From the NCBI GenBank assembly GCA_902801205.1, contig CADCHE010000009.1:31297-95296 (forward strand): a DNA stretch of 64,000 nt, in the 5' to 3' direction. Position numbers and translations under genes: made by a program. The notes under the pieces are model-generated. The model saw only the letters and a list, made by a program, of their open reading frames with translations, was not told the origin of the DNA and ran no database searches. The stretch comes from an uncultured Bacteroidia bacterium. Its GTDB lineage: Bacteria; Bacteroidota; Bacteroidia; Bacteroidales; UBA932. This document shows positions 4,858 to 8,281 of the stretch, one piece after another; the first letter of the stretch is position 1, and every line of letters begins with the position of its first letter.

Positions 4858-6009
4858 ATGTCTGAATTTCGGATTGTTGAGGTAAAAGGAAGGAAGGACT
4901 TGATGCGCTTCATCAAGTTCCCCGACCGGTTGTACAAGGATTGTCCGCAGTATGTTCCTGCCCTCCATTCCGACCAGGTGCACTCGCTGACGAAGGTATC
5001 GACGCTCTCCTACTGTCGCCGCAAGATGTGGCTGGCCCTGGATGGCGGCGGAAAGGTCGTCGGCCGCATCTGCGCGATGATCAATCCCCGTTACAATGCG
5101 TTGTATGGAAAAAAACGCGCCCGTTTCGGCTGGTTCGACCTCATCGACGACCGGGAGGTGGCCCGTCTCCTGCTCGGGACGGCAGAGGCCTGGGCGAAGG
5201 AGAACGGGATGAACGAGATCCATGGCCCGCTTTATTACAATACGCTTGGCAAGCAGGGCATGCTGGTGGAAGGGTTCGAGAACATTCCGCCGTTCAACTG
5301 CCTGTACAACTTCCCGTATTACAACGACCACGTCACTGCGCTGGGTTACGTGAAGGAGTGTGACTGGCTGCAGTACAAGATGCCGGCCGACCAGGGCGTG
5401 AGCGAGAAGATCTCCCGGATGGCGGGGCTGCTCAAGCAGCGCTACAACCTGCACGAAGGCAGCCTGGACAAACTGAAGAAAGACAAGAAGATGGTCCGGT
5501 ACTTCTTCGATGTGTATAACGAGAGCTTTGCAAAGTCGGTCTATAATTTCGTCCCGTTCACGAAAGAGGAGATCGAAGAGGAGGCCAAGGCATCGCTGCG
5601 TTTCGTCTCCGACAAGACCAGCAGCATCATCTTCGACGAGAACGGGGAACTGGTTGCGTTCGGCATCACCTTCCCGACCATTTCCAAGGCCCTGCAGAAG
5701 TGCAAAGGGCATCTTTTTCCCTTCGGGTGGTACCACCTCCTGAAGGCGATGCGGGACTATGACACCGTCGATCTCATGATCAACGGAGCGGTTCCGAAAT
5801 GGCAGAACACGGGCGTGTCCGCCATCTATCATAGCGCGATGTCCGAGAAGTACATCGCAGCGGGGACCCGGTGGGCGATCGCGAACCCGCAGATCGAATC
5901 CAACGGGGCGGTGAACGTGTGGTCGAAATACGACAGTGAGCTCTACATGCGCCGCCGTTGTTACATCAAGCAGATTTGGATATATGGCAGAGAACAATAC
6001 ACTGGTTGA
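4858..6009 (+). CDS. Conserved Bacteroidetes protein with GNAT-like fold
   Basis: 383 soluble residues with no signal peptide. The C-terminal half contains the strand/helix pattern of an acyl-CoA N-acyltransferase (SSIIFDENGELVAFGITFPT), and the N-terminal half has EFRIVEVKGRKDLMRFIKFP and GGKVVGRICAMINPRYN. This matches large two-part GNAT-like proteins that are common and uncharacterised in Bacteroidetes. No substrate can be named. It has its own complete promoter. Its 3' end overlaps the start of prfA by 26 bases in another frame, so the two are probably translated from one message. Confidence 0.6.
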   Translation: MSEFRIVEVKGRKDLMRFIKFPDRLYKDCPQYVPALHSDQVHSLTKVSTLSYCRRKMWLALDGGGKVVGRICAMINPRYNALYGKKRARFGWFDLIDDREVARLLLGTAEAWAKENGMNEIHGPLYYNTLGKQGMLVEGFENIPPFNCLYNFPYYNDHVTALGYVKECDWLQYKMPADQGVSEKISRMAGLLKQRYNLHEGSLDKLKKDKKMVRYFFDVYNESFAKSVYNFVPFTKEEIEEEAKASLRFVSDKTSSIIFDENGELVAFGITFPTISKALQKCKGHLFPFGWYHLLKAMRDYDTVDLMINGAVPKWQNTGVSAIYHSAMSEKYIAAGTRWAIANPQIESNGAVNVWSKYDSELYMRRRCYIKQIWIYGREQYTG

Positions 6010-7078
6010 CAAGATCCTGGGGCTTCAGGAGAAATACCTTTCCCTGCAGGAGCAGTTGACGGATCCGGCGGTCATCGCCGACATGAAGAAATATGTCCAA
6101 CTGAACAAGGACTACAAGCAGCTCAAGCCGATCGTCGAGACCGGCCTGGAATACAAGAAGGTGGTCGATGAGATCGCAGAGGCCAAGGATATCCTCATCA
6201 ATGAGAAGGATGACGACCTGCGCGAGATGGCGCGTGCCGAGCTGGCCGACCTTGAACCGAAGGTGCCGCAGATGGAGGAGGACATCAAGATCCTGCTGAT
6301 TCCGGCCGATCCGGACGACGCCAAGAACGCCATCATCGAGATCCGCGGAGGTACCGGCGGCGATGAAGCCGCCATCTTCGCCGGCGACCTCTTCCGCATG
6401 TATTCCAAGTTCGCCGAGAAGCGCGGCTGGAAACTCGAGGTCAACGACGAAGCGCCCGGAACATCCGGTGGCTACAAGCAGATCGTCTTCAAGCTTTCCA
6501 GCAACGACGAAGGTGTCTACGGAGTGATGAAATATGAATCCGGCGTGCACCGCGTGCAGCGCGTCCCGCAGACCGAGACCCAGGGCCGCATCCAGACGTC
6601 TGCGGCTTCCGTGGCCGTCTTCCCGGAGGCGGGCGAGTTTGATATCGAGTTGAATATGAACGATATCCGCAAGGATACCTTCTGTTCTTCCGGCCCCGGC
6701 GGGCAGGGTGTCAACACAACGTATTCCGCCGTCCGCCTGACGCACATCCCTTCGGGCATCGTCGTGCAGTGCCAGGAGGAACGCTCCCAACTCAAGAATC
6801 TCGACCGCGCGATGGAGGAACTCCGTACGCGCCTGTACAACCTGGAGCACCAGAAGTATCTCGACGGCATCGCCGCCAAGCGGCGTACGATGGTCTCTAC
6901 GGGCGACCGTTCCGCCAAGATCCGTACCTATAATTATCCGCAGGGGCGCGTCACCGACCATCGGATCAACTGGTCGATGTACAACCTGCCGGTTTTCATG
7001 GACGGTGACATCCAGGAATGCATCGACCAGCTCCAAATCGCTGAAAACGCCGAGCGCCTGAAGGAAGCCGGCGAATAG
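5984..7078 (+). CDS. prfA: Peptide chain release factor 1
   Basis: 364 residues, full length. It contains the GGQ loop in SGPGGQGVNTTYSAVRLTH, which triggers peptidyl-tRNA hydrolysis, and the stop-codon-reading region RVQRVPQTETQGRIQTSAA, where PQT takes the place of the RF1 PxT tripeptide that recognises UAG/UAA. Helical domain 1 spans roughly residues 1-100. The ATG at 5984 (MAENNTL) lies inside the end of the preceding gene; a longer frame from 5936 would add residues foreign to RF1, so it is rejected. Expression probably depends on the promoter at 4821. Confidence 0.96.
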   Translation: MAENNTLVDKILGLQEKYLSLQEQLTDPAVIADMKKYVQLNKDYKQLKPIVETGLEYKKVVDEIAEAKDILINEKDDDLREMARAELADLEPKVPQMEEDIKILLIPADPDDAKNAIIEIRGGTGGDEAAIFAGDLFRMYSKFAEKRGWKLEVNDEAPGTSGGYKQIVFKLSSNDEGVYGVMKYESGVHRVQRVPQTETQGRIQTSAASVAVFPEAGEFDIELNMNDIRKDTFCSSGPGGQGVNTTYSAVRLTHIPSGIVVQCQEERSQLKNLDRAMEELRTRLYNLEHQKYLDGIAAKRRTMVSTGDRSAKIRTYNYPQGRVTDHRINWSMYNLPVFMDGDIQECIDQLQIAENAERLKEAGE

Positions 7079-7096
7079 TTTATTGTTTTTCACCCC

Positions 7097-7143
7097 GCCG
7101 GAGGATACCGGCAGTGTGCTTGTCAACCACTTAAAAAACAAGG
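7097..7143 (+). ncRNA. Candidate preQ1-I riboswitch upstream of yhhQ-queF
   Basis: A leader hairpin GCCGG/CCGGC (7097-7101 with 7108-7112) is followed by a small pseudoknot-like element. Stem AGTG (7113-7116) pairs with CACT (7128-7131). The loop segment CTTG (7119-7122) can pair with CAAG (7139-7142) inside an A-rich tail, TAAAAAACAAGG (7132-7143). A short stem, a C-containing loop and an A-rich tail pairing back into the loop is the H-type architecture of preQ1 class I aptamers, and the tail closely resembles known examples. The tail ends one base before the yhhQ ATG, so ligand binding would mask the initiation region. Both downstream genes belong to queuosine metabolism, which independently supports the call. 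P1 is only 4 bp by eye. No covariance search was possible. Confidence 0.68.
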
Positions 7144-7144
7144 A

Positions 7145-7822
7145 ATGAAACCTAGATTTTCTGCAGCTTTCATGCTGATGGCCGTGCTCTTCACGGTCTG
7201 TCTCATCACCTCCAACCTGTTCGCGACCAAGATCTTCTCGGTCGGCGGCATCGCGCTTCCCTGCGCGGTGATCATCTTCCCGATCTCCTACATCCTCAAC
7301 GATTGTTTCGCCGAGGTGTGGGGTTACCGTGCTTCGCGCCTGGTGATCTGGACGGCTTTCGCGATGAACTTTTTCGTCGTGCTCGCCGGCTGGCTCGCCG
7401 TCGCCCTGCCCGGGGCTTCCTTCTGGGACGGGGCGGAGCATTTCGACTACATGTTCCGGATGGCGCCGCGCGTCGCTTTTGCGTCGCTGCTCGCCTTCCT
7501 GGCAGGTGCAACGCTCAACGCTTTCGTGCTGAGCCGCATGAAGGTGGCGCAACGGGGGAAGGCCTTCTCTCTCCGCGCCATCCTCTCCTCGGTCGCCGGC
7601 GAATTGCTTGACTCCCTGATCTTCATGCCGATCGCTTTCTGGGGAGCACCGTGGAGCCAGCTGGGGCGGATGATGCTCTTCCAGGTGAGTTTCAAGGTGC
7701 TTTACGAGATCGTCGTCCTGCCGGTCACGGCCCGTGTGGTGAAGGCGCTCAAGCAGCATGAAGGCGTGGATGTCTTCGATGAAGGCATCTCGTACAATCC
7801 GTTCATAATCAAAGACATTTAA
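7145..7822 (+). CDS. yhhQ: Queuosine precursor transporter, YhhQ/VUT family
   Basis: 225 residues with about six membrane segments. The family signatures are plain: ITSNLFATKIF near the N-terminus and FPISYILNDCFAEVWGYR after the second helix. Members of this family import the deazapurine precursors preQ0 or preQ1 (or queuine) across the inner membrane. It stands directly behind the riboswitch candidate and 3 bases ahead of queF, giving a coherent salvage pair: import of preQ0 followed by its reduction to preQ1. No other queuosine gene (queC, queD, queE, tgt) is present in the window. Confidence 0.9.
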   Translation: MKPRFSAAFMLMAVLFTVCLITSNLFATKIFSVGGIALPCAVIIFPISYILNDCFAEVWGYRASRLVIWTAFAMNFFVVLAGWLAVALPGASFWDGAEHFDYMFRMAPRVAFASLLAFLAGATLNAFVLSRMKVAQRGKAFSLRAILSSVAGELLDSLIFMPIAFWGAPWSQLGRMMLFQVSFKVLYEIVVLPVTARVVKALKQHEGVDVFDEGISYNPFIIKDI

Positions 7823-7825
7823 TCC

Positions 7826-8281
7826 ATGGAAAGAAAAAAGGAAGGCCTGTCCGCGCTGGGCAGGAAGGCGGAATACCGTGACGATTACGCTCCCGATGTG
7901 CTGGAAACGTTCGAAAACCAGCATCCGGACAATGACTATTGGGTGCGTTTCAACTGCCCGGAGTTCACGACGCTCTGCCCGATCACCGGGCAGCCGGATT
8001 TTGCGGAGATCCGCATCAGTTACATCCCGGACCGGCGCATGGTCGAGAGCAAGAGCTTGAAACTCTATCTGTTCAGTTTCCGCAACCACGGTGACTTCCA
8101 CGAAGACTGCGTCAATATCATCATGAAGGACCTGGTCAAGCTGATGGACCCGAAATACATCGAAGTGACGGGCATCTTCCTTCCGCGCGGCGGCATCTCG
8201 ATCTGGCCTTACGCCAATTACGGCCGCCCGGGTACGCCTTACGAGGAACTGGCACGCCGTCGCTTCGAGACCCACGAGTGA
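7826..8281 (+). CDS. queF: NADPH-dependent preQ0 reductase QueF
   Basis: 151 residues, the short unimodular form of QueF. The catalytic cysteine lies in [17 protein letters not shown] (Cys51 of TTLCP, with Asp58 of QPD). The family motif [22 protein letters not shown] follows, of which [13 protein letters not shown] binds NADPH and substrate. It reduces 7-cyano-7-deazaguanine to preQ1, the base inserted into tRNA by Tgt. It is separated from yhhQ by only 3 bases, so both sit under the same leader. Confidence 0.95.

Follow-up and report, generated by a model that had tools for sequence, protein, structure and literature searches.

A candidate class I, type II preQ1 riboswitch abutting the start codon of yhhQ in Bacteroidales

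Described preQ1-I switches and the leader of yhhQ

In the account given in PMC11625349, the consensus that precedes the 3' strand of helix P1 in preQ1-I riboswitches is AC in type II and UC in type I, and type III is described by UU together with a buried AAGG. The type II switches of Thermoanaerobacter tengcongensis (Tte) and Bacillus subtilis are presented there as H-type pseudoknots with a U after P1, a G-C pair closing P1, the AC, an A-rich L3 and queuosine genes downstream (PMC11625349), features that are all found in the element reported here. The type III switch of E. coli yhhQ, which is described as switching gene expression in E. coli (PMC10622847), resembles this element in being small, in carrying an AC motif and in being located 5' of yhhQ (PMC10622847, PMC11625349). 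Type I and type II switches have already been reported for Bacteroidota in general (PMC11625349), and a 2013 regulon survey describes preQ1 switches as mostly limited to Firmicutes (PMC3766115).

The DNA analysed (the window) is a stretch of 64,000 nucleotides from an uncultured Bacteroidia bacterium, in which an H-type pseudoknot can be read directly at 7113-7142 of the forward strand, two bases 5' of the yhhQ ATG at 7145. P1 is formed by AGTG (7113-7116) and CACT (7128-7131), the latter strand also supported by covariation, and P2 by CTTG (7119-7122) and CAAG (7139-7142), which is followed by GA and the start codon. P1 is closed by G7116-C7128, and L1 is TG (7117-7118), with U7117, directly after the 5' strand of P1, as the conserved uridine. 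L2 reads TCAAC (7123-7127), where C7127, within the type II AC, is the putative preQ1 specificity base, and the A-rich L3, TAAAAAA (7132-7138), occupies positions -13 to -7 relative to the start codon. All eight pairs and the named pocket positions are intact. This is exactly the fold drawn in a first-pass annotation of this DNA, AGTG/CACT and CTTG/CAAG with an A-rich tail, and both of its helices covary in relatives.

Judging from its sequence, the element at 7113-7142 is very probably a class I, type II preQ1 riboswitch, for which binding of the ligand is predicted. The AC preceding the 3' strand of P1 (A7126 C7127; present in 85 of 87 distinct cores, having been imposed for the cores picked by pattern) points to type II, and the pseudoknot, the closing G-C followed by U (T in all 87 distinct cores, a count partly imposed by core selection), the A-rich L3 and the linkage to queuosine genes are those of this type. 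A type I switch would carry UC before the 3' strand of P1 and UU after its 5' strand, whereas the window has AC and UG. With regard to type III, P1 of the E. coli switch is followed by UU and an AAGG Shine-Dalgarno sequence is sequestered, whereas L1 in Bacteroidales is UG, UA or UU and pairing is confined to CAAG; in the window itself L1 is UG and the last G of the AAGG is unpaired. The identity proposed in the first-pass annotation, preQ1 class I, is accordingly supported by the covariation, the queuosine-gene linkage and the type II residues.

The Bacteroidales elements nevertheless depart from the Tte and B. subtilis type II switches in several respects: P1 may be reduced to 4 bp, as it is in the window, most leaders have a P2 made up of four ordinary pairs, a Shine-Dalgarno sequence is missing at the usual distance, the tail lies mostly 2-6 nt from the AUG, an extra hairpin is often found 5' of P1, and the scores fall below the cut-off of the Rfam PreQ1 model (RF00522). 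The P2 tail, CAAG or CUA(A)G, is shared. The aptamer itself thus belongs to a known type, and its less familiar features are an expression platform lacking a Shine-Dalgarno sequence and the hairpin 5' of P1. In the open-access literature that was searched we found no published description of this Bacteroidales set, some of which may be included in a 2014 survey by McCown and colleagues. TPP riboswitches differ from the preQ1 switch in both fold and ligand. Those of Bacteroides have in common with the present element a phylum without Shine-Dalgarno sequences, and control of either transcription or translation is reported for them in the title of a work cited in PMC7366714.

Covariation in relatives and detection by covariance models

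Of the 299 genomes of the window's family, 122 contain YhhQ relatives, and 90 loci, mostly the higher-scoring matches, were read. A landmark pattern caught 75 of these 90 leaders, 43 of them distinct, and after omission of L054, L056 and L070 for their unusual length the remaining 40 distinct leaders constituted alignment A1; L035, L036 and L059 were missed by the pattern yet match the model. In A1, 97.5% of the cells are paired (P1 99.4%, P2 95.6%), double changes occur in 31 cells versus 6.1 in shuffled alignments, and the covariation score reaches 0.304 versus 0.082 after shuffling and 0.000-0.077 for slid structures. Changes affecting both partners are seen at pairs 4-22 and 6-20 of P1 and at 11-39 and 12-38 of P2, the latter helix being found as CTTG/CAAG, CTAG/CTAG or CCAG/CTGG, so that the alignment of yhhQ leaders recommended in the first-pass annotation did reveal compensatory changes in both helices. 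Four A columns are invariant in the A-rich L3 of A1. Since the landmark pattern fixed the last G of the P2 5' strand, the first C of its 3' strand and the G-C closing P1, those pairs are uninformative; the closing G-C is found in 40 of 40 sequences of A1, where extraction imposed it, and in 26 of 26 of A2, where it was found by the model. This second alignment, in which most of the 26 distinct sequences belong to other families, is paired in 99.5% of its cells (100% in P1) and scores 0.181 versus 0.035 after shuffling and 0.000-0.057 for slid structures, with the covariation located in P1 and P2 nearly invariant. Two of the five covariation measures were not striking, namely further pair types (6 versus 5.4 in A1, a value reached by 231 of 500 shuffles, and 3 versus 2.4 in A2, reached by 249 of 500) and pairs with a double change (4 versus 2.7 in A1, 26 of 500 shuffles being as high, and 2 versus 1.5 in A2, 296 of 500), and relatedness among the sequences can inflate the remaining ones.

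At E<=0.01 a model derived from A1 matches 76 of the 90 family loci, its training loci included, and leaves 14 of the 90 without a match. An anchor-free pseudoknot parse, which accepted 52 of 90 real versus 22 of 270 shuffled leaders at its top threshold and 83 of 90 versus 194 of 270 at a low one, misparsed several leaders and was replaced by the covariance model. Within the family, the leaders L053, L054 and L057 (genus g17) resemble altered or decaying versions; L054, with a model E of 0.14, could pair TTCC/GGAA in place of the usual P2, and neither L053 nor L057 has a model match. In L059:456-511 L2 is much enlarged, with a match of 56 nt versus 33, and P1, P2 and the AC are kept as judged by eye. 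Two distant Vut_1 relatives, L090 and L091, show an aptamer-like arrangement (AAGG/CCTT and TCGG/CCGA) just inside a possible first ATG, perhaps a coincidence of coding sequence.

Folding of the single sequence 7090-7160 was unremarkable (z -0.55; an equally good fold is reached by 54 of 200 shuffled sequences), and P1 is absent from its minimum-energy structure, in which other pairs are preferred. The alignment of RF00522 covers the full length of the model at 7108-7147 and scores 13.0 bits, the cut-off being 39; this corresponds to an E of 5.5 in a search of 4227 families over 401 nt, or, by our own arithmetic, to about 0.0013 if the family is named beforehand. The Rfam search proposed in the first-pass annotation thus gave a full-length alignment to preQ1-I below the threshold, and at E<=10 the models of preQ1 classes II and III did not match anywhere in 6900-7300. 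None of 40 related loci tried reached the RF00522 cut-off, and 20 of the 40 had no match to it at E<=10. With 13.0 bits against 39 the element is not filed as a member of RF00522, a cut-off that is a matter of detection and not a biochemical feature. The description 'potentially divergent' accordingly holds with respect to the Rfam model, whereas within the large Bacteroidales group the element is ordinary; and of a model hit and covariation, whose joint absence had been named as speaking against the switch, the Rfam cut-off was missed and the covariation is clear.

Two models of our own were also applied to this locus. R1, a model of A1 that carries P1 only and counts the window's sequence among its 40, finds a single site in the window's genome at E<=10. 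R2, with no loci from the window's genus and one (L102) from its family, finds the site at 7110-7142 with 42.7 bits (E 1.1e-6 over 64 kb, the next best being E 1.5) and, genome-wide, with E 4.3e-5 (next best 8.38); its independence is incomplete, as R1, which was trained partly on the window, served to recruit its loci. Taken on its own, the evidence from the window is weak, and the comparative evidence is strong. A second switch in the window's genome, where a further RF00522 match, of 15.9 bits, is present, was considered and rejected, and a ZMP-ZTP riboswitch match (14.7 bits against 39, 6971-7079) was rejected, as it sits in the end of the prfA gene. In 247 Bacteroidota genomes RF00522 exceeds its cut-off in one only, with 50.7 bits at L093:1501-1545 on the reverse strand, near a possible start codon. 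This match, whose genome belongs to the window's class, has the appearance of a type I switch, judging by the UC before P1, and shares fold, pathway and phylum with the window's element; type I, with its UC, is described as binding two ligands (PMC11625349), whereas the window has AC. Weaker RF00522 matches in L094 (26.6 bits) and L095 (25.1 bits) were discarded as, by eye, stretches within coding sequence.

Occurrence across Bacteroidales and beyond

Over 295 Bacteroidales genomes R1 gave 47 matches in 43 genomes of many families, three of them (G000, G022 and G005) in genomes whose yhhQ leaders had trained it. The gene downstream is a queuosine gene in all 47 cases, yhhQ in 39 and queC in 8. 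Curated models confirmed queC in L106, L119 and L265, and queD both in L106 and downstream of L098, a match of the phylum-wide search; for the incomplete third gene of L106 QueE models rank first, below their cut-offs. In the phylum-wide sample R1 matched 5 of 395 genomes. The R1 match L100 (G681, E 0.024), which lies inside a long ORF, was considered false and excluded from later analysis. These numbers point to a blind spot of Rfam, with RF00522 attaining its cut-off in 1 of 247 Bacteroidota genomes and R1 giving matches in 43 of 295 Bacteroidales, in samples that differ and with R1 itself at 5 of 395 across the phylum.

A scan of public genomes with the exact pattern returned at least 119 stretches, and among the 80 loci listed 77 precede yhhQ or queC, whereas for 3 the sequence stops before the next gene could be told. 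Records titled Tannerella forsythia, Bacteroides graminisolvens, Barnesiella, Paludibacter and Prolixibacteraceae are represented among those listed. Individual loci vary in their helices, the outer pair of P2 being changed to A-U in L259 (ATTG/CAAT) and P1 being GGGG/CCCC in L265 and L266. The same aptamer is also found two bases 5' of yhhQ in L141, L182, L198 and L206 (Mailhella) and in L203 (Avidesulfovibrio), in records that are five metagenome-assembled genomes titled as Desulfovibrio relatives. Four of their YhhQ proteins form one clade with a support of 99/96 (L203 is outside the tree), which suggests a joint transfer of switch and gene rather than mis-binning. In a record titled Patescibacteria, L209, a Bacteroidales-like switch and yhhQ were found, sister of L113 in the tree, and this contig is probably mis-binned.

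Queuosine salvage, the start codon and alternative readings

The gene presumed to be controlled by the switch is yhhQ (7145-7822, forward strand), encoding a preQ0/preQ1 transporter (TIGR00697, 98.6 bits against a cut-off of 50.95; Pfam Vut_1, 3.6e-46). The second gene of the operon, 3 nt past the yhhQ stop, is queF (7826-8281, forward strand), encoding the preQ0 reductase, or preQ1 synthase (TIGR03139, 172.9 bits against 86.9), and the two family models thereby confirm the queuosine salvage pair recognized in the first-pass annotation. Upstream on the same strand lies prfA (5936-7078), for peptide chain release factor 1 (TIGR00019, 469.5 bits against 423.25), whose true start is probably slightly inside the listed ORF. 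In the window's genome, which is 98.7% complete, tgt and queA are present and queC, the only one searched among queC, queD and queE, gave no match; consequently, the bacterium appears to depend on imported precursor, and probably salvages queuosine precursors. A second queA-like frame was observed in this genome at G000:C15:63862-65043, besides queA on contig C1. Given the apparent dependence on import, an off-switch that senses preQ1 and acts on the importer and QueF makes sense, and a salvager that seems to regulate import bears on the sharing of queuosine precursors within gut communities.

The same context raises the question of the ligand, since the aptamer could have preQ0 or another 7-deazaguanine as its main natural ligand and report the imported precursor. 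YhhQ is described as importing preQ0 over preQ1, and the type II Tte aptamer as binding preQ0 with a 17-fold lower affinity (35 nM) (PMC10622847), to which the missing queC match in the host may be added. We consider this reading unlikely, however, in view of the queF gene in the same operon, whose product converts preQ0 to preQ1, and of the statement that every class I type binds preQ1 (PMC11625349).

Returning to preQ1 as the ligand, the position of the aptamer indicates how it may act. The gap between P2 and the first ATG is 2-6 nt in 166 of 178 distinct leaders, which leaves no room for a terminator, and no terminator was predicted in 6900-7300 of the window. Control at the level of translation, as proposed in the first-pass annotation, is thus strongly suggested for the window by the position against the start codon. 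Members of the phylum are described as lacking Shine-Dalgarno sequences, A at -3, -6, -12 and -13 being associated with better initiation in Flavobacterium johnsoniae (PMC6847099). In 180 leaders the frequency of A is 0.96 at -12 and 0.97 at -11, values that are partly by construction, as 80 of 189 leaders were chosen by a pattern containing the A-run; the distance to the ATG is not affected by this choice. A permissive Shine-Dalgarno-like match is found in 16 of 178 leaders, including the AAGGA of the window, where it almost touches the ATG. At the window's own ORF starts an A-tract is not evident (A 0.19 at -12 for 37 ORFs with unverified starts).

Based on this layout, we hypothesize that preQ1, when plentiful, would occupy the pocket that lies between P1 and P2 and would pair with C7127, upon which P2 (CTTG/CAAG) would close and the A-rich L3 would pack along P1. 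This would conceal from the ribosome the 10-14 bases that immediately precede the AUG, among them the A-tract thought to replace the Shine-Dalgarno sequence in Bacteroidota, and yhhQ would be translated less, as would queF by coupling. When preQ1 is scarce the tail would be free, preQ0 and preQ1 would be imported, and preQ0 would be reduced to preQ1.

An aptamer of this kind might instead control transcription, by pausing or termination, as the B. subtilis type II switch is reported to terminate, and also pause, transcription (PMC11625349). In six leaders (L115, L119, L125, L175, L200 and L263) a stretch of 72-169 nt separates the aptamer from the first ATG of the queC frame, a distance at which a different expression platform is likely; folding of three of these queC leaders yielded no common structure. 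For the window such control is nonetheless improbable, considering the gap of a few nucleotides before the ATG in nearly all leaders and the 6900-7300 region devoid of terminator-like sites.

A loss of regulation in the window's species, the fold being intact by descent, has a conceivable precedent in the family, where some yhhQ loci have no match and a relative carries a degenerate copy with P1 intact and P2 broken (L022:596-627; ACAG versus CAAA), possibly a leader whose switch was lost. In the window itself, however, not one of the eight pairs or named pocket positions is altered, and we hold a relic to be very unlikely. Least probable of all is that the leader harbours, in place of a ligand-binding RNA, a conserved protein-binding element or an unstructured A-rich enhancer of translation, a reading for which A-rich upstream regions accompanying good initiation in Flavobacterium johnsoniae (PMC6847099) and the unremarkable fold of the single sequence might be invoked, against the compensatory changes in P1 and P2 (in P1 across other families as well), the exclusive location of the order-wide matches at queuosine genes and the agreement of the class I pocket residues.

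The interval delimited in the first-pass annotation, 7097-7143, also holds a hairpin that it did not mention. This hairpin, P0 (7097-7112, forward strand), consists of GCCGG (7097-7101), the loop AGGATA and CCGGC (7108-7112), is part of the minimum-energy fold, and ends directly at P1 with zero gap. Hairpins scoring at least 14 and abutting P1 (0-4 nt) are found in 70 of 175 distinct leaders, as compared with 8.3% of shuffled sequences and 11 of 172 windows taken farther 5'; a strong 5' hairpin is missing from most leaders. As MAFFT misaligned this region, the hairpin pairs were counted by end-anchored positions, and in 49 common-landmark leaders positions 2-8 are paired in 88.0% versus 60.1% after shuffling of the arms (maximum of 2000 shuffles, 67.3%). 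By inference, stacking on the short P1 and protection of the 5' end are possible alternative roles of this hairpin. A lineage-wide form of preQ1-I without a Shine-Dalgarno sequence can be envisaged, in which L3 would take the A-tract site at about -10 to -13, binding would hide the initiation signal, and the 5' hairpin would steady P1, a proposal whose chances we regard as evenly balanced. If true, it would be a natural case of what the preQ1 field has predicted, and with many natural examples at known positions this prediction is directly testable in laboratory Bacteroides. As for the promoter, TAnnTTTG, the Bacteroidota promoter element, occurs within 90 nt upstream in 137 of 178 leaders (a raw count with no background); it is absent from these 90 nt in the window's leader, and yhhQ may thus be co-transcribed there with prfA.
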